Source: Myxococcota bacterium (GTDB lineage: Bacteria; Myxococcota_A; Polyangia; Polyangiales; Houyiibacteriaceae). From it: 47,636 bases of DNA. The notes beneath the pieces are model-generated. The model did not search any database, was not told the origin of the DNA, and saw nothing but the letters and a program-made list of their open reading frames with translations. This document shows positions 7,040 through 16,959 of this stretch, one piece after another (within the stretch, counting starts at the first letter, position 1; the number at the start of each line of letters is the position of its first letter). The stretch is from positions 1 to 47,636 of the forward strand of contig JANQQS010000221.1 of NCBI GenBank assembly GCA_028284955.1. The letters run 5' to 3'. A program made the translations under genes and the position numbers.

Positions 7040-9256
7040 ATGAGCAGCTCAATTTTAGAACGAGCAAAAACCTTGCTCCGCGACCCATCCGGCGTTCTCA
7101 CCCAAGATTTGGTGCGGAGCCCGGGTGGATTCGGCCTCGGCCAAGTGCCCACCAAGCTCAAACCCGATGCCGTGACGACGTCGGTCTGCGGATTTTGCTC
7201 CACTGGCTGCGGGCTCGATATTCACCTTCGAGAAGGTCGCGCGATCAGCCTGTCGCCCGCGACCGACTACCCTGTCAACCTTGGCATCGCATGCCCCAAA
7301 GGTTGGGAAGCGCTTACCCCGCTCGAATCGGAAGACCGCGCGACAGCTCCGCTGATGCGCGATGCGCGCGGAAAGCTCGCGGAAACCGATTGGGAAACCG
7401 CCATTCAGACATTCGTCGATCGCATGAAGGCGATCCAGAGCGAACACGGCAAAGACTCGGTCGCTTTCATCAGCACCGGCCAAATCCCCAGCGAAGAGAT
7501 GGCGCTGCTCGGTGCGCTGGCCAAGTTTGGCATGGGTATGGTCCATGGCGACGGGAATACCCGGCAGTGCATGGCCACCGCGGTGGTCGCCTACAAACAA
7601 GCGTTCGGGTTTGATGCGCCTCCTTATACCTACAAAGATTTTGAAGAGTCGGATGTCTTGGTGTTCGTGGGAGCAAACCCGTGCATCGCCCATCCCATCA
7701 TGTGGGAACGCGTTTGCAAGAACCAACGCAATCCAAAGATCATTGTCATCGATCCGCGTCGCACAGAGACGGCGATGGCGGCGGCGCTCCACGTGCCGCT
7801 CCGACCCAAGAGCGACCTGCGCTTGTTCTACGGCCTCGCGAATCTATTGATCGAGCGAGAATGGATCGACCGAGAGTTCATCGAAGCGCACACCCTAGGC
7901 TTTGAGGAATTTCGCCGACACGTGGCTCGCTTCACCCTCGAAACTACCGCGCAAGATACCGGCATCGCGGCAGAGCAGCTCGAGCAGCTGGCCTCAGCCA
8001 TTCATCAAGGCCAGCGCGTCTCTTTCTGGTGGACCATGGGCGTCAACCAAAGCCACGAAGGGGTTCGGGTTGCCCAATCGATCATCAATCTCGCGCTCAT
8101 CACGGGAAACATCGGCAAGCCAGGGACCGGCGCCAACTCGATCACCGGGCAATGCAACGCCATGGGCTCGCGGCTGTTCAGCAACACCACGAATCTCCTC
8201 GGCGGCCACGATTTCACGAACGTGGCCCATCGAAACAAAATAGCCGACGTACTGGGCATCGACGCGACGGTCATACCCGACCGCAACAGCTGGGCCTACG
8301 ACCAAATCATGGAAGGAGTCCACCGCGGAACCATCAAAGGGCTTTGGATCATCGCCACCAACACCGCGCATTCTTGGATTAATCAGGCCGACGTTCCTGA
8401 CCTCCTGGGCAAGCTCGATTTTCTCGTGGTGCAAGACATGTATCGCAACACCGAGACCGCGGAGCACGCTGATCTTGTATTGCCAGCCGCGGGCTGGGCC
8501 GAAAAAGACGGCACCTTCATCAACTCGGAGCGCCGGATCGGACTGATCAAAAAGGTCGCGCGAGCCCCTGGAGACGCGCTGGCCGATTTCCACATTTTTA
8601 AACTCATCGCTGAAGCATGGGGCTGCGGGGCCATGTTCGAGCGCTGGGAATCTCCCGAGGCGGTGTTCGAGATTCTCAAATCAGTCTCCGCGGGACAGCC
8701 CTGCGACATCACGGGCATCGAAGGCTACGAAATGCTCGAAAGCCATCGAGGCATTCAATGGCCCTTGCCCAAAGGACAGCCAGTAAAGCCACGGAGCGAG
8801 CGCCGACTATTCGCGAACGGTCGGTTTTTCCACGCCGACGGCAAAGCGCGTTTTCTTTTCGAAGAACCGCAAGCACTGCCGGAGCCCACAAGCCGTCGCT
8901 ACCCGTTCTTGCTGCTCACCGGCCGGGGAAGCTCGAGTCAATGGCATACGCAAACCCGAACCAGCAAATCCGCGGTGCTGCGCAAGCTCTACGCGGAAGA
9001 GCCCTACGTCGAAATCAGCCCCGACGATGCGGATCGACTGGGCATCCAGCCACACTCGTGGGTCACCGTTCGTTCCCCGCGGGGATCGCTCAAAGCCCGC
9101 GCGTTTGTGACTCGCGTCGTGCGGCCAGGTCAAGTGTTCGTTCCGATGCACTACGCCAAAACAAACCAGCTGACGTTTCCCGCCTTTGATCCGTATTCGC
9201 GACAGCCCGCGTATAAAGCAGCTTCGGTATCGGTAGAGCCGCTCGGGAGAGCCTGA
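7040..9256 (+). CDS. Molybdopterin-dependent assimilatory nitrate reductase catalytic subunit
   Basis: Reduces nitrate to nitrite on a bis-MGD molybdenum centre. N-terminal [4Fe-4S] motif CGFCSTGC (~residues 51-58) with the fourth cysteine in IACPKGW (~86). The molybdopterin oxidoreductase domain and a C-terminal molydopterin-dinucleotide-binding domain follow ([17 protein letters not shown], then [10 protein letters not shown]). At 738 aa it has the size of NarB/NasA/NasC-type enzymes and lacks the extra C-terminal [2Fe-2S] domain of Klebsiella NasA. No Tat or Sec signal is present, so it is cytoplasmic. Context (nirBD before, NarK transporter after) makes nitrate rather than formate the likely substrate. 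An ATG at 7020 in another frame was not used; AAGGA lies ~12 nt before the chosen ATG. Confidence 0.9.
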
Positions 9257-9419
9257 AAGCCATTGCCGGCATTTGGTTTCAACATTTCATGTCTTCGAAA
9301 AGCTACCGAAACATTCGCGCCCTAGCGTACCGATGAACAGTCGCCGTTACGGCCGCGGAAGCGCTTGTCGTAACTTGCGACGCTCAGCAGTCTGAAACTT
9401 CAAACCGGGGTACATCATC
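9257..9419. other. Intergenic gap before the nitrate transporter
   Basis: 163 nt without an open frame of note. It probably holds leader or promoter sequence for the transporter, but no confident -35/-10 pair, operator or terminator hairpin was found. Confidence 0.4.
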
Positions 9420-10748
9420 ATGACGAACGAACGCGGCCAAGCCGTTCGGATCCAGCTTAGTGACTTCAAGACGCCGCAGATGCGCGCCTTTCATCTTTCG
9501 TGGTTTGCGTTCTTTCTCTGCTTCTTTGGATGGTTCGGCATCGCCCCACTCATGGCAGTGGTTCGAGAAGAGCTCAACCTGACCAAAGAGCAAATCGGCA
9601 ACACCATCATCGCTTCGGTCGCGATTACGGTCATCGCTCGACTCGGCATTGGCTGGCTGAGCGACCGTATTGGGCCACGCAGGGCATATTCGGCTCTATT
9701 GGTCCTCGGTTCGTTCCCGGTCATGGGCATCGGGCTCGCCAACACCTACGAATCGTTCTTGCTGTTTCGCCTGGCCATCGGCGTCATCGGCGCTTCGTTC
9801 GTGCTTACCCAGCACCATACTTCGCTGATGTTCGCGCCCAACTGCGTCGGCACCGCCAACGCGACCACGGCCGGCTGGGGAAATCTCGGCGGCGGAGTCA
9901 CGCAAATGGTCATGCCGCTTATTCTTGCTGCGTTTCTTGGCCTCGGAGTCGGCGAGTATTGGGGTTGGCGACTGGCGATGATCGTGCCCGGAATCGCGCT
10001 GATGATCACCGGGTTTGCGTACTACAGGTTGACGCAGGATTCGCCTGAAGGAAACTTCAGCGACCGAAGCAAAACGTCACGCGAAAGCGCAAAGGGCACG
10101 TTTGTCACCGCTGCCAAAGACTATCGCGTGTGGGCGCTCTTCGTGGTGTATGGAGCGTGTTTCGGAGTCGAGCTCACCATCAACAACATCGCCGCGCTCT
10201 ACTTCCATGATCGCTTTGGGCTCGGCGTGGCGACGGCCGGTATCGTGGCAGGTCTATTTGGTTTGATGAACCTATTTGCTCGGACCATGGGTGGCTACTT
10301 CAGCGACAAAGTAGGCATTCGCTGGGGCCTCCGCGGGCGCGTTGCATTCTTGGGGTTTGTGCTGCTCGCCGAAGGCATGGCCTTGATGGTGTTTTCTCAA
10401 ATCGCAGTGCTGCCGCTCGCGATCGTGTCGCTCATCGTATTCAGCCTCTTCGTGCAAAGCTCGGAAGGCGCGACGTATTCAGTGGTGCCCATGTTGAACA
10501 AGAAAGCGCTCGGCTCCATTTCGGGCATCGTCGGCGCGGGCGGCAACGCGGGCGCAGTCGCGGCAGGCTTTTTGTTCCGATCGGAGGCGCTCGATACATC
10601 TACCGCGCTACTCTATCTTGGTGTCGCGGTGGCTGCGATCTCGGCGCTGACGCTGGTGATTCGTTTCTCCCCCGCACAAGAAGACGCAGCCCGTCAGGAA
10701 ATGCGCGAGAGTTTGCGGGCGCGGTCGTCGGCACTGCAAAGCGCCTAG
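9420..10748 (+). CDS. NarK/NasA-type nitrate/nitrite MFS transporter
   Basis: Twelve-segment major facilitator protein of 442 aa for nitrate uptake (or nitrate/nitrite exchange) across the inner membrane. Both glycine-rich nitrate signatures are recognisable: AGWGNLGGGVTQ in the middle of the N-half and GIVGAGGNAGA in the C-half. The loop-2 MFS motif is GWLSDRIGPRRA. It follows the nitrate reductase after 163 nt that hold no gene; a separate promoter there is possible, but I see no clear site. Just after the stop is a two-hairpin repeat that may end or process the transcript. Confidence 0.94.
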   Translation: MTNERGQAVRIQLSDFKTPQMRAFHLSWFAFFLCFFGWFGIAPLMAVVREELNLTKEQIGNTIIASVAITVIARLGIGWLSDRIGPRRAYSALLVLGSFPVMGIGLANTYESFLLFRLAIGVIGASFVLTQHHTSLMFAPNCVGTANATTAGWGNLGGGVTQMVMPLILAAFLGLGVGEYWGWRLAMIVPGIALMITGFAYYRLTQDSPEGNFSDRSKTSRESAKGTFVTAAKDYRVWALFVVYGACFGVELTINNIAALYFHDRFGLGVATAGIVAGLFGLMNLFARTMGGYFSDKVGIRWGLRGRVAFLGFVLLAEGMALMVFSQIAVLPLAIVSLIVFSLFVQSSEGATYSVVPMLNKKALGSISGIVGAGGNAGAVAAGFLFRSEALDTSTALLYLGVAVAAISALTLVIRFSPAQEDAARQEMRESLRARSSALQSA

Positions 10749-10752
10749 CTAC

Positions 10753-10823
10753 CTGAGGGTCTGGCACCCAGACCCTCTCGTCGGGGTACGACCCCGCCGA
10801 TTCACCCAAACTCCCCCGCCAGG
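10753..10823 (+). repeat. 71-nt two-hairpin dispersed repeat (copy 1)
   Basis: Begins 5 nt after the nitrate transporter stop. Hairpin 1 is GAGGGTCTGG/CCAGACCCTC at 10755-10777. Hairpin 2 is CGGGGT-ACG-ACCCCG at 10782-10796. A 27-nt tail follows. By eye it matches 32193-32263 (reverse strand) at 70 of 71 positions. Related copies occur at 31868, 31936, 32273 and 47518. REP-like in character; it may also act as a terminator. Confidence 0.85.
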
Positions 10824-11000
10824 ACGCATGCGCGATGGTGACCGTGGAGTTCGCCAATCAGGTCATTGCCGAGTGTAGTGCACGAGACTGTGCTGCTTGA
10901 TTGGGCACGGCTTGCTGTTGACCTGCTGAGCTGATCGCTGCGATACACCTTCACTGCTTTGGAACCGCGGTACACGTCACTGCTTTAAAGGAGCTGGTTT

Positions 11001-12725
11001 ATGAGATTGCTTAGGATGGAGTGGTCCCAGGTTGGGATCGCGATGGCGGCTTGCGCCGTGTGGACCGCGACTGCGGTCGCCCAAACGGATGCGCCAACGC
11101 AGACCGACACGCCGGCACGCGAGCAGAGTCGCGTTCAGCCGGAGAGCGAACCGGCAGACTCGGGAACCGATCGCGCGAGCGACGAAGCGGAAGGTGCAAC
11201 GCCGCAGGCAGAGGAACCGCCCACCGATCCTGCGAGCGCTCCGGTGGAATCGAATGGTGCAGATTCTGAGACGGGAGGTTCCCAAGCTGCAGACACACAG
11301 ACGGGCGATTCTACCACCACCACCGACACGAGCGCGGCGGAGAGCAGTGTCGATGTAAGCACTGGGAACTTGAGCACCACCAACTTGAATGCAGCGGGCC
11401 CTCAAGCCACCACAGAGCAAACTTCGGAGGACGGCAAGGACTCCAGCAAAAACGCAGAACCCGCGACCAAAGATGGCCCATGGACGTTCTTGGGAGCGGA
11501 GTGGAAACCGCATGCGCAGGTTCGTGAGCGACTCGAGATTCGCATCAACAACTACGCTCCCGGACCGAACGATTCCTCGGAAGTGCACTTTGTAACCTCG
11601 CGTGCCCGGGTGGGCCTGGAGGTAAACTGGAGCGCGGTGCGGCTGTTCACCCAGCTGCAAGACGCACGCAATCTCGGCGCCGCGCCGCCCGCCGACAATT
11701 CGAACGCGAGTACCGGCATGCACCAGGGATACGTGGAACTCCGAAGCCCTTGCAAATGCGGCTGGCTTCGGCTCGGTCGCCAAGAAATCAACTACGGCGA
11801 TGAACGACTGATCGGCGCGCTTGATTGGACGCAGCCAGCACGCTCTTTTGACGCGCTCCGGGTTCATCTCGGAAACGCCGATTCGCCCGCCGAACTCGAC
11901 ATGTTCGGATCCATCTTGCGCGACCAGCAACGGTTCGAAATCGTCACCATGGCGCCAGACGGAACAGAAACGACCTCCATGGGTGATTCAAACGGCGACT
12001 ACCTCGCGGGCATGGAGTTTTCGTGGAGGCCCGTCGATTTTCTCACCATTCAGCCCTATCTCATTTACCGACACGACGGCCCCATCGCGGACAACCCTAC
12101 CCGGGACCGAGATATCGCGTCCCCCGGCTTGCGCATTACCTCACCCGGCATCGGGGGCTTTTTCTATACCCTCGACGGCACGCTCCAGTTCGGCAAGGTG
12201 GGCACCAACAACCATTTCGCGTACGGGTTTGCCGGCGATGTCGGTTACAAGATCGACTCTCCAGCCCGGCCCGCGATCAGCGCCGGGGTCGCGCTGGCCT
12301 CGGGCGGAAGCTCGGCTGGCGAAGATGCCGACCAGTTCGAAAACTTTTTTCCCACCAACCACAAGTTCTACGGTTACGTCGACTTGTTTGGGTGGCGCAA
12401 TATCATCGAAGAGCACATCAAGGTTGCTCTAAAACCAAAATCGCTTCCCTTCACGGCCACGTTCTTCATCTTCAACTTCGGTCTGCAGGATGGCGACGCG
12501 CCTTGGACCAACGCGGGCGGCGCGGTGCTGGGCCAGTCGGATGAGTCGGGCAGCAATCAGCTCGGCCAGGAAATTGATTTCGTGCTCAGTTGGAAGCCCC
12601 TCCCCGGAGTTGGCCTCAGCGGTGGCTATGGCCTCTTCATTCCCAACAAGGGATCGAAACGCCTCGGCAACGAGGATCCCACGCATTGGATGTACCTGAT
12701 GTTCGGCGGCAAAATGGGCTCCTAG
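11001..12725 (+). CDS. Alginate-export-type outer-membrane porin, putative nitrate porin
   Basis: A 574-aa exported beta-barrel. A Sec signal peptide (residues ~1-27, ending AVAQ) is followed by a ~120-residue Thr/Ser/Glu/Ala-rich low-complexity segment. A barrel of the alginate_exp type starts near WTFLGAEWKPHAQVRERLE (~155) and contains the family pattern RLGRQEINYGDERLIG. Barrels of this family often form small anion or solute channels. Lying directly behind the nitrate transporter on the same strand, it may admit nitrate through the outer membrane (inference from context only). AAAGGAG lies 7 nt before the ATG. The long linker before the barrel is unusual and could sit in the periplasm. 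Confidence 0.82.
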   Translation: MRLLRMEWSQVGIAMAACAVWTATAVAQTDAPTQTDTPAREQSRVQPESEPADSGTDRASDEAEGATPQAEEPPTDPASAPVESNGADSETGGSQAADTQTGDSTTTTDTSAAESSVDVSTGNLSTTNLNAAGPQATTEQTSEDGKDSSKNAEPATKDGPWTFLGAEWKPHAQVRERLEIRINNYAPGPNDSSEVHFVTSRARVGLEVNWSAVRLFTQLQDARNLGAAPPADNSNASTGMHQGYVELRSPCKCGWLRLGRQEINYGDERLIGALDWTQPARSFDALRVHLGNADSPAELDMFGSILRDQQRFEIVTMAPDGTETTSMGDSNGDYLAGMEFSWRPVDFLTIQPYLIYRHDGPIADNPTRDRDIASPGLRITSPGIGGFFYTLDGTLQFGKVGTNNHFAYGFAGDVGYKIDSPARPAISAGVALASGGSSAGEDADQFENFFPTNHKFYGYVDLFGWRNIIEEHIKVALKPKSLPFTATFFIFNFGLQDGDAPWTNAGGAVLGQSDESGSNQLGQEIDFVLSWKPLPGVGLSGGYGLFIPNKGSKRLGNEDPTHWMYLMFGGKMGS

Positions 12726-12750: not shown

Positions 12751-12932
12751 TAAGCCCATATGTCCTCGGCGGACCGCCCGGTGTCTCGTCCTCGGAGGGA
12801 CGGGTCCCCCTGAACTCGGGCGCGAGAAGGAAGGGCAACGACTCGTTCGAGTCGTCACCCTTCCTTGCCTAGATGCCCTCAGACACGGGGCCGCCCTATC
12901 CCTCCTGTGGGCGAGACACCGGGCGGTCCGCC
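12751..12932 (-). ncRNA. Structured element A, candidate ncRNA (read leftwards)
   Basis: A ~180-nt self-complementary unit, given on the minus strand because its mismatches are G-U pairs only on that strand. Outer stem P1 pairs 12912-12932 with 12768-12788 (21 bp, perfect). Inner stem P2 pairs GGAGGGAU (12905-12898) with GUCCCUCC (12801-12794). The apical hairpin P3 spans 12827-12866 (19 bp, with two tandem G-U pairs). The last ~15 nt (12767-12751) lie outside P1 yet resemble the matching tail of element B. Loop sequences are conserved with B while the stems differ with compensation. I do not recognise the family; the long rod shape recalls 6S RNA, but no 6S features were verified. It could instead act as DNA cruciforms or a MITE. 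Confidence 0.6.
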
Positions 12933-13014
12933 TCCATAGAGAACTCATTGAGCAGTTGATTGTTTGCCACCTGAGCTGTTGTGGCGTGCCAAGATCAATC
13001 TGTTTATCCAAGAA

Positions 13015-13195
13015 GGCGGACCACTGAGGGTCGCGCCCGCAGGAGGGATGGGTGGGTCCCGTGTCTGAGGGTATCTCCATAGGCCACGGTCGCGACTCGA
13101 ATGAGTCGTGGCCGTGGCTTCCTGAGCCCGAGTTCGGGGGACCCGTCCCTCCGAGGACGCGACCCTTAGTGGTCCGCCGAGGACGAATAGGCTAG
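13015..13195 (+). ncRNA. Structured element B, inverted partner of element A
   Basis: Same architecture as A in opposite orientation. P1 pairs 13015-13035 with 13158-13178 (21 bp, one G-U). P2 pairs GGAGGGAUGGGU (13042-13053) with 13141-13152 (12 bp, one U-G). P3 is 13083-13098 with 13103-13118 (16 bp, loop GAAU, two wobbles). Beyond the shared GGCGGACC foot, the P1 sequence differs from A in both arms but stays paired; the lower half of P3 does the same. Shared unpaired or inner blocks include GTGTCTGAGGG and CCCGAGTTC. A ~15-nt tail GAGGACGAATAGGCT after P1 is also shared with A. An 82-nt spacer (12933-13014) separates the two divergent elements. Confidence 0.6.
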
Positions 13196-13680: not shown

Positions 13681-14873
13681 GTTCTGGTGCCCAGCCCGCG
13701 CCCTGCTCTCTGTGGAGCGCCTGGAACGACCTGTTCGAACGCACGGGAAGCACCCGCGCCATCGCGGTGTTGCGCATTCTTGTCGGCCCCATCGTCATCG
13801 TGCACCTCTGGCCGTTTCTAGAGCAGGCGCAGTCCGGCCTCTACTTTGCCGACGCGTTCTTCGTGCCCTTCTTCGACTGGTGGCCCGTGCTGAACGTAGG
13901 TGTCTATCGGGCGCTGATTTGGCTCGCGATCGCCAGTTCGGTGGCGATGTCACTAGGTCTCGGGACACGGCTTGCGTGCGCCTACACGTTTTTCTTCGTG
14001 TCGTTCAACGTATTGAGCAACCAGCTCTTTTTTCACCACAATCGCGCGTTCCTGATGTCGATTCTCTTTGGGCTGGCGCTCATTCCCTGCGGCGCCACCC
14101 TGAGCATCGACGCGTGGCTTGCCGCGCGACGAGGACGCCCCCTAGCCGACGCCATGCCACTCTGGCGTCTCTACCTTGTTCGATGCCTCGCCTGCACGCC
14201 CTACCTCGCCTCCGGCGCCAGCAAGCTGATCGACCCCGCCTGGTGGGGCGGCGTGGTGATGTACGACCGCTTGCTTCGATTTCGCCACATCGCGGAGCAA
14301 AAAGGCGTCCCTTCAGAGCTCATCGACATCATCGCTGTACCGGAGTTTCACGCCGTCTTCTGGAAGTTTGTCGTGCTCACCGAGCTCTTCATCGGCATCG
14401 GTTATTGGTTTGGGCGAACCCGGGTCGGCGCCATGTACATGGCGCTAGGATTCCACGTCCTCATCGAAATCACGTCACGAGTCAGCGTGTTCAGCTATCT
14501 CGGCATCTGCGCCACCCTCATCTGGGTGGTCCCTCAAACCCGCGACCGGATCGTCTACCTGCGCCTCGATACGCCAGGCGGCCGTCGCTGGGTGCGCGTG
14601 ATCCAGGCGCTCGACTGGCTCGCGCGCTTCGACATCCGCCCTCAACAGGCCCCCGCATCAGCAAACGAAAAGCGCAAAAAGATCGAATGGGTGGTCGACG
14701 ATCGCAGTGGCCGCATAGAAGGCGCAGCCGCGAGACGGGTTCTCCTTAGCCGCTTGCCTATCTTTATGCCGTTGGTCGCGCCGTGGCTGTTGCTCTCCGA
14801 GCACCGACGCTCGCGCCGAGCGTCTACGGACGCGCCCCTTGCAGATACAACCGCGCGAATTTCGCAGCGTTGA
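13677..14873 (+). CDS. HTTM-domain membrane protein (vitamin-K-dependent carboxylase-like)
   Basis: 398 aa with about eight to nine hydrophobic segments. Features of the HTTM family: an ARG/Leu-rich first segment (RAIAVLRILVGPIVIVHLW), the paired aromatic region FFDWWPVL and the SGASKLIDPAWW motif after YLASG. The family includes eukaryotic gamma-glutamyl carboxylase; most bacterial members are uncharacterised. The C-terminal ~70 residues are soluble and charged. GTG start overlaps the preceding small gene (GTGA). The 3' end overlaps the oppositely oriented M23 gene by 50 nt. The family call is fairly firm, but the function is unknown. Confidence 0.82.
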   Translation: MSSGAQPAPCSLWSAWNDLFERTGSTRAIAVLRILVGPIVIVHLWPFLEQAQSGLYFADAFFVPFFDWWPVLNVGVYRALIWLAIASSVAMSLGLGTRLACAYTFFFVSFNVLSNQLFFHHNRAFLMSILFGLALIPCGATLSIDAWLAARRGRPLADAMPLWRLYLVRCLACTPYLASGASKLIDPAWWGGVVMYDRLLRFRHIAEQKGVPSELIDIIAVPEFHAVFWKFVVLTELFIGIGYWFGRTRVGAMYMALGFHVLIEITSRVSVFSYLGICATLIWVVPQTRDRIVYLRLDTPGGRRWVRVIQALDWLARFDIRPQQAPASANEKRKKIEWVVDDRSGRIEGAAARRVLLSRLPIFMPLVAPWLLLSEHRRSRRASTDAPLADTTARISQR

Positions 14874-15848
14874 CGAAGCACGAACCTGCATACGGCGCCC
14901 CCGCGGCGATCATTAGGCGACCCTCCGAACCGTCCGACATATGTTTCGAAAGCCACTGAACGGTCACGCGGAAGGTTCCATGTTCAACTCTAACGCACCG
15001 CTCTAGTTCACTGCCTTCGACAACTTCTTGTTCGCGAGTCACGACTTCTTGCTTGACCAAGACGTGGTGAAAATCCGGAATGAGAATGCGCCCTTCGATC
15101 TCATAGGTCTCGTCCACGTGGGCAGCGGTGCATGAAAAATTGTTGGTGATGTCCACACCAAGGTCTCTGAACGCATTTCCGCAGGATGAGTACGAGACGT
15201 TGCGACTGCAGGGCGATCTCGTATCCGACGATACGACGACCATTCCGGGAACGGGAATTCCGCCTTCGAGCGAGCTGGCGTGGGCTGCCGCGGGTAACTC
15301 GTAGAAACGCAGTGGCACAGTGCTCCCGCCAACGTCCGCAACGTGAAAATGAAGATGAGGTCCCGTGGTCCACCCAGTCATTCCAGCTTTCCCGAGCAAC
15401 TCACCCTGACACACTTGCTGCCCGGCTTTGACAACGACGCTACCGGTGTCGAGATGAGTATAGGTCGAGACGTTCCCGTTGCCGTCGTCTATTCGAACCT
15501 GGTTGGCCTCGTGCGCGCATTCGCTGGTCCCGCAGGTCGTTTTTGAATCGCTCCGCGTTTGAACGACAACGCCGTTGTGCGCCGCCACCACTGGCGTCCC
15601 AACCTCCGCCGCGAAATCCACCGCGAACTGCTGTGTCCCGGTATGTGAAAAGCGCCCGTGAGCGCTTTGCACGATACTAAATCGCGCGTTTTTTTGTTCT
15701 CGCCCTGCAATGGCAAATGCACCCATCTCCGACGAGGCGCGGCAAACTTCTCCGTTTCGCGCACCGCAGGCGCCTCGCTAGACGCCACGCACCCGATTAC
15801 GAGCAAGCACGCGCACGCCACGCTGCGCGATTCCAAACGGCGATTCAA
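14824..15848 (-). pseudogene. M23-family peptidase lipoprotein, frameshifted at an A7 tract
   Basis: Tandem paralogue of the gene at 15934-16959. The N-terminal part (lipoprotein signal with VIGCVAS, then EKFAAP...HLPLQGENKK) is in one frame. The peptidase part (ARFSIVQSAHGRFSH...) is in another. The break falls at seven As on the coding strand (15689-15695). An eighth A would restore ENKKNARFSIVQ, matching the paralogue, and give 341 aa, the same length as the paralogue. M23 metal-site motifs are intact: FSH...VDF and GPHLHFHV. A conserved Cys-containing C-terminal region follows. A downstream ATG at 15726 could make a 300-aa product without a signal. This could be a pseudogene, a phase-variable gene, slippage-dependent expression or a sequencing error. 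Confidence 0.75.
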
Positions 15849-15933
15849 AACAGCACCGAGCTAACTCCGACTACACCGGACCAAGTATCACGCTGCACAA
15901 CCGAGCTGCTATCTGAACAACAACCCATCTCGT

Positions 15934-16959
15934 CTAGCGATCCGGTTTCTGGAGATGCAACCACGCGTGCTTGTCTACGTTCGCGACACAACGGTCGGCG
16001 GACAGCACTGTGGTGACGAACATGCCACCGGAAACCCCGAGTGCTTTGGGAAGAAACGGCCAGTGGATGGTGGCTCTAAAGGTGCCGTCTTTCTCAGTTC
16101 GAACGCATGTCTTGTCTACTCCCGCGGCAATCGGAATCCGCTCGCGTGAAAGCATCTTCTGAGAAATCATCACAGCTTCGAATCGGGTATCGATGACCCG
16201 ACCCACTATCGTGTAGTCCCGCCCAAGCTCTGCCGTCGTGCAAGAAATATTGTTCGTGATCAAGACGCCAAACTCATCGAAAGCCTGCCCGCACGCCGAG
16301 TACGCCACGTTTTTCAAACAGTGTTCTTTGGTGACGGCGGGCGAGACCTTCATGCCCACGATGGGTACTCCGCTGCCGACGTCGTCAATGTTCAGGTTTG
16401 AAGCCTTCGCGATTTCATAGAATCTCAATGGCAACGTCGATTGGGAAACGTCGGAAATATCAAAATGCAGGTGCGGCCCTTTCGTCCATCCAGTATTGCC
16501 GCTCGACCCCAACCGGTCTCCTTGGCAAACCTGGTCGCCAACCTTGACCTTAAGCGAGCCAGCCTTCAGGTGAAGATAAGTCGCAACGGTGCCATCTCCA
16601 TGGTCGACGTACACATAGTTCGCGTGGACGGCACACTCCTCTGAATCGCATCCTGTAGTGGAATCGCCGCGGGCCGCAACCACGATGCCCGCGCGCGCAG
16701 CGACTACCGGAGTCCCAATCCGCGCTTTGAAGTCTACCGAGTATTTCGCCTTACCCTTGTGCGAAAATGGCCCGTGCGCGCTCTGGACGATTTCAAATTT
16801 CGCGTTCTTATTGCCACCCAGCGGCATATGCACAAGCTGGGCAGGCGGCCGAATGAATTTCTCCGTTTCGTGCGTCGTTGGTAGGTCTCCCGTGGCAACG
16901 CAGCCTAAGAAAAGCAAACAGGCACCGACCGCGCTGTGCGATTGAAAACGCGAAATCAA
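15934..16959 (-). CDS. M23-family peptidase lipoprotein
   Basis: 341 aa. Lipoprotein signal peptide with lipobox LFLGC (Cys ~20), then a LytM/M23 domain: FSHKGKAKYSVDF supplies the first metal ligands and GPHLHFDI the HxH motif (~residues 70-175). M23 enzymes cut peptide crosslinks in peptidoglycan, or act as cofactors for amidases when degenerate; here the motif looks complete. The ~150-residue C-terminal part is not assigned and is shared with the frameshifted paralogue downstream. It contains several cysteines (HCLKN, SACGQ, NISC, KTC, DRC) that may form disulfides. It diverges from the lipoprotein gene at 17059. Confidence 0.87.
   Translation of the reverse strand: MISRFQSHSAVGACLLFLGCVATGDLPTTHETEKFIRPPAQLVHMPLGGNKNAKFEIVQSAHGPFSHKGKAKYSVDFKARIGTPVVAARAGIVVAARGDSTTGCDSEECAVHANYVYVDHGDGTVATYLHLKAGSLKVKVGDQVCQGDRLGSSGNTGWTKGPHLHFDISDVSQSTLPLRFYEIAKASNLNIDDVGSGVPIVGMKVSPAVTKEHCLKNVAYSACGQAFDEFGVLITNNISCTTAELGRDYTIVGRVIDTRFEAVMISQKMLSRERIPIAAGVDKTCVRTEKDGTFRATIHWPFLPKALGVSGGMFVTTVLSADRCVANVDKHAWLHLQKPDR

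Follow-up and report, generated by a model that had tools for sequence, protein, structure and literature searches.

A dispersed family of long-hairpin elements in one bacterial order, with a fixed core and selection on one folded strand

In the window (the whole stretch of 47,636 nucleotides analysed here), two inverted structures of ~165 nt lie where the original prediction had placed an inverted pair of structured elements: element A on the minus strand (12768..12932, read 12932 to 12768) and element B on the plus strand (13015..13178), each measured from P1 foot to P1 foot. They are homologous long hairpins with their core and loops in common, and they score 193 and 179 bits, respectively, with R1, a covariance model built from A, B and a third copy, C. 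The co-directional genes at 7040-12725 encode a molybdopterin oxidoreductase, an MFS transporter and an Alginate_exp porin, possibly a nitrate-type operon, and two neighbouring, similar proteins with an M23 peptidase domain are encoded at 14824-16959 on the minus strand.

From the foot inward, both elements consist of the stem P1, a small conserved internal loop, the stem P2, a conserved asymmetric core and the terminal hairpin P3. In A (minus strand), the P1 5' arm (GGCGGACCGCCCGGTGTCTCGCCC) occupies 12909..12932 and the 3' arm 12768..12791, while P2 is formed by 12894..12905 (5' arm) and 12794..12804 (3' arm), with the conserved loops CGCCCACAG and CGAGGACG, respectively, adjoining these arms on the outer side. 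The core of A lies around CCCCGTGTCTGAGGGC on its 5' side (12875..12892) and around GCCCGAGTTCAGGGGGAC on its 3' side (12804..12821), and P3, the variable terminal stem, spans 12827..12866. The corresponding parts of B (plus strand) are the P1 arms at 13015..13038 (5') and 13155..13178 (3'), the P2 arms at 13042..13053 (5') and 13142..13152 (3'), the core around GGTCCCGTGTCTGAGGG (5' side, 13055..13072) and GCCCGAGTTCGGGGGAC (3' side, 13126..13142), and P3 at 13081..13120. P1 is 24 nt long in both elements, 96% paired in A and 92% paired in B, and its foot reads GGCGGACC/GGTCCGCC. As inverted repeats, the arms match at 84% (12753-12810 with 13136-13193) and 74% (12807-12943 with 13004-13140). 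The tail of ~15 nt beyond P1, described earlier as conserved, is indeed GAGGAC-N2-AT-N-GGCT in both elements (12753..12767, minus strand, in A; 13179..13193, plus strand, in B), and is hardly found in C.

The 82-nt spacer between A and B (12933..13014) is weakly palindromic and has no match to a sigma-70-like promoter, and neither it nor the surroundings of the two elements showed a promoter- or terminator-like site. In the family described below most copies are single, not paired, and the three close pairs (in the window, G106 and G047), all divergent, are separated by 82, 73 and about 210 nt, with no common sequence evident in these spacers. The idea of two dedicated RNAs transcribed divergently from the spacer is thus not borne out. 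When both strands were folded, as had been proposed, the element strands of A and B each had a z-score of about -10 and their complements -9.8 and -7.8. The opposite strands fold almost equally well because each element is a near-palindrome, so that folding energy alone is uninformative on the strand.

Copy C is located in the same genome (C30:38514-38681), and is 85% alike to A, compared with 74% between A and B. An apparent truncated 3' half on contig C156 (G000:C156:37673-37730) and another fragment (L007:1501-1538) retain just the core's 3' side and some of the 3' arm, and may be truncated relatives or chance matches. Comparison of the three full copies shows both sides changed and pairing intact in 13 of 64 pairs, a number that was reached in 0 of 500 shuffles (4.3 for shuffles) and by no slid structure (1-3), which agrees with the compensatory stem changes originally described. 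The same holds for one orthologous element, the copy in a topB-like gene: in five species, 100% of its cells are paired, four pairs are double-changed, all wobbles are G-U and the covariation score was equalled in 0 of 500 shuffles. An origin of the stems from inverted duplication of the target DNA was rejected, since orthologous copies change in both arms, indicating that the pairing is maintained and not freshly made.

For the count of wobble pairs, the 5' arm of each copy was aligned to its own 3' arm and G-U and A-C were scored alike, taking isolated mismatches with two Watson-Crick pairs flanking each side and leaving out the conserved internal loop. The original prediction had every imperfect pair that it checked in P1, P2 and P3 as G-U on one strand only. 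Outside the loop this is correct (3 G-U, 0 A-C in A, B and C), but inside it A and B have a C-A opposition at one fixed spot (CGCRCAG/CGAGNACG). In the whole family, 52 G-U stand against 4 A-C on the element strand (p about 1e-11, a nominal value with related copies treated as independent), and G-U is in excess in every carrier genome but one, which is tied 1:1. This bias shows that the folded form of one particular strand is under selection in the family. Moreover, the topB copy is antisense to its gene, and wobbles that are exclusively G-U are not expected there from symmetric hairpin repair or from mutation of the coding strand; the pattern fits selection on the folded element strand. DNA hairpins likewise tolerate G-T better than A-C. 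From the sequence pattern, action of the selected strand as RNA is therefore favoured over single-stranded DNA, but not proven, and of the RNA-level selection proposed earlier it is the selection on one folded strand that stands.

A search with R1 revealed relatives in the order but outside the host's own family, with wholly different stem sequences and equally good pairing. A second, core-centred covariance model (R2) showed 16 carriers among 184 genomes of the order and none outside it (scans of 318 genomes of the class and 379 of the phylum); these scans of >40 genomes used Infernal's stricter filters, which may miss weak members. About 60 relatives were found overall, with 1-13 copies per genome (13 in G082, 8 in G042, 3 in the window genome). 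One match, in G152 (L042), has no core and was dropped as false. Two metagenome-assembled genomes were identified as carriers by pattern search: JAAFHV01 (Myxococcales bacterium; matches G082) and JADGRE01 (matches G047). The homologues with further covariation for which the original prediction had called are thus present in other genomes.

Between genomes, the stems are unrelated in sequence with the pairing kept, P1 being the least conserved part, while the core is fixed as GGUCCYGU(N)GUYUGAG 5' of P3 and CGAGUYCGGGGGGACC 3' of P3. In nearly all copies a helix, P3a, starts at the G of UGAG and stops at the C of CGAG. The closing stem P1/P2 has roughly 35-45 pairs and P3 varies from 17 to about 75 nt; in genomes that we take to be Sorangium-like, the stems are very long and nearly perfect. 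No Rfam family, 6S RNA included, matched at the gathering score and the sub-threshold matches were chance only, in line with the earlier failure to recognise an RNA class. 6S RNA as the identity of A and B was rejected on this ground, and also as the canonical 6S RNA of the window genome is separate from them, at C187. A phage or plasmid origin was rejected as well, because an exact-pattern search of IMG/VR, a search of plasmids with A and B and a search of phages with the topB copy were all empty. We found no earlier description in myxobacteria in the open-licence literature. In summary, A, B and C are members of a previously undescribed long-hairpin family, so far seen in one bacterial order.

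The copies are dispersed. In the 12 aligned copies of G082, similarity covers the hairpin, a 5' lead rich in pyrimidines and, on the 3' side, the end GTGCGC-CGCGCACAAA (consensus GTGCGC(C/G)CCGCGCACAAA); the flanks beyond are unrelated. No synteny of copies was seen beyond a genus. In the genus of G154-G159, element G159_2 is present in G159 only and missing from five congeners, and element G154_119 was not found at the corresponding place in four congeners, G155-G158. No target-site duplication was recognised at these two polymorphic sites, where the intergenic flanks are hypervariable. In the same genus, the linker that joins the topoisomerase and helicase domains of the topB-like gene contains an element in all six species, in-frame and antisense; this linker is hypervariable in other genera. 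Contigs of G159 break at this element and the gene is split, while the frame is kept in congeners with the complete gene. Such a copy, stationary throughout a genus, means that at least some copies are immobile. A second gene contains an internal antisense in-frame copy in a lysine-rich stretch. Overall, the family is dispersed and apparently mobile.

Assembly problems were observed at several places. At G159:C5:354400-355600 (L189) the assembly has long G runs followed by C runs where congeners have an element, and contig ends coincide with elements in many other cases. The hairpins are probably an obstacle to sequencing and assembly, and as they appear to break assemblies, the elements are probably under-counted.

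Some pairs of copies bracket other genes. In G159 (G159:C1:1242619-1247049; L133, L253), a 4.3-kb cassette is enclosed by an inverted pair whose 5' ends point inward, like those of A and B. The cassette is missing from five congeners and encodes NsnA- and NsnB-like proteins (PADLOC), names which we take to belong to the Menshen defence system. In G158 (G158:C205:45977-48160; L127), 2.1 kb next to the candidate defence gene pair PDC-M56 lie between two copies in direct orientation. The 2.1 kb code for two proteins, one with an HNH-like C-terminus (our own reading, no Pfam hit) and the other unassigned, and the second copy there is hybrid-like, with a mismatched outer 5' arm. In G042, a DDE_5-type transposase gene lies within an inverted pair (L030:452-1741), with no IS ends recognised around it. 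The other copies have ordinary, diverse neighbours. A tie to one gene family was rejected for this diversity, and defence as a general partner was rejected because the link is seen at some loci of one genus only.

With genes called by a simple ORF script, stop codons make up 27 of the 42 nearest facing gene ends (14 of 18 within 60 nt), the element is antisense to the gene of that stop in 19 cases and sense in 8, and both neighbours converge on the element in 11 of 28. No transposase or other enzyme was linked to the family, and no autonomous partner element sharing terminal inverted repeats was found. Y1 (HUH) transposase was not found in G042, G047, G082, G106, G155-157 and G169-172 (a diverged relative or an incomplete assembly is possible). 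An IS200/IS605-type Y1 transposase as the mobiliser was rejected, as it shows no correlation with the family and is missing from most carriers, G082 with its 13 copies among them. As a test for retron msr-msd, the genes beside A/B, C and other copies were scanned and no reverse transcriptase was among them.

By description (not by sequence), the family resembles Rickettsia palindromic elements (RPE), which are about 105-150 bp, form a long stem-loop and exist in many dispersed copies, both intergenic and in-frame within conserved protein genes (PMC2229807, PMC10969869). Size, long stem-loop, dispersal and in-frame copies within genes are common to both; here, however, the stems have diverged through compensatory changes around a conserved internal core, wobbles are strand-biased, in-gene copies are antisense and the host order is different. 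The resemblance is one of habitat and size, and we would not assign the elements to any known family. Like MITEs, NEMIS/Correia, ERIC and REP/BIME, the elements are short, multicopy, palindromic, dispersed, frequent at gene ends and without their own coding capacity, their transcripts would form stable hairpins and pairs can bracket cargo. They differ in their nearly free stem sequences, in the lack of conserved terminal inverted repeats in common with an autonomous element, and in having no matching transposase and no recognised target-site duplication.

With moderate confidence, we interpret A, B and C as a non-autonomous palindromic mobile element family with an unusually strong structural constraint on one strand. 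Each copy is one long hairpin with a closing stem nearly free in sequence and kept in pairing, a fixed asymmetric core and a variable P3. A trans-acting enzyme may carry the element to new positions, chiefly the 3' ends of genes and disordered linkers. We infer that recognition of the core, by this enzyme or by a host protein, requires one strand, most likely an RNA copy, to be folded. Such recognition would explain the fixed core, the paired stem changes and the G-U wobbles on that strand only. The inverted pair of the window may reflect two insertions side by side or an ancient inverted duplication, and similar pairs elsewhere can bracket cargo. Against mobility, the ends are without the conservation typical of MITE terminal inverted repeats, no enzyme was linked and no target-site duplication was recognised, and the presence/absence differences could come partly from loss or homologous recombination of flanking islands. 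In a bolder version, which we think unlikely, the replicating form would be a folded, SINE-like RNA copied back into DNA by a core-reading enzyme, so that stem pairing and not sequence would be selected, and inverted pairs could carry host cargo such as defence systems.

The strand-specific covariation and conserved internal loops might also come from a cellular structured RNA (protein-binding or a 6S-like regulator), with A and B as divergent small RNA genes and the paralogues under their own promoters. The elements have the size of 6S RNA (RF00013) and its outline, a long closing stem, a large central asymmetric loop and a terminal stem. We regard this as rather unlikely for a family that is sporadic (16 of 184 genomes), multicopy, not syntenic past a genus, polymorphic among congeners and inserted antisense within coding linkers, that has no Rfam score and no promoter-like site in the spacer, and whose host has its own 6S RNA elsewhere. 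The frequent position at stop codons and between converging neighbours would suit a REP/BIME-like 3'-end element protecting or terminating the mRNAs of adjacent genes, but the antisense excess (19 versus 8) means that the constrained strand is usually not the mRNA strand, the intrinsic-terminator signature (a hairpin followed by a U-run) is absent at A and B, and some copies lie within genes; this role is quite doubtful.

One-strand tolerance of G-T is also compatible with a hairpin site in single-stranded DNA, the folded DNA strand being the substrate of attC-like recombination, for example, or of an HUH/IS605 enzyme. As in integron attC sites, one folded strand would be the functional form, the stem is paired and variable, the terminal structure varies, and elements bracket cassettes in G158 and G159. 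Yet the foot is without the R'/R'' core motifs (RYYYAAC/GTTRRRY), the copies are single or paired and not in cassette arrays, the conserved part is apical and not at the foot, and Y1 transposase does not track the family, so we consider such a site very unlikely. Finally, DNA-level template-switch (quasipalindrome) correction could keep stems paired without any selection acting on the fold of a single strand, and some stems, chiefly the Sorangium-like ones, are almost perfectly Watson-Crick over 40 pairs. This correction is strand-symmetric, yet the wobbles are 52:4 for G-U on the element strand, and the core and internal loops are conserved though imperfectly paired, which makes it highly improbable as the explanation.

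The original prediction had set selection at RNA level against a mobile MITE with no strand bias. This either/or fails: the family combines dispersed, mobile-like copies with the strand bias and with selection on structure. In bacteria, palindromic repeats are commonly regarded as MITEs at the DNA level whose ends are conserved. In contrast, free ends, a fixed core, paired changes and one-sided wobbles are found here in a dispersed family, some copies of which lie in protein linkers with the frame kept or enclose an inserted defence cassette. The family therefore offers a direct route to ask what such repeats do when single-stranded and what moves them.
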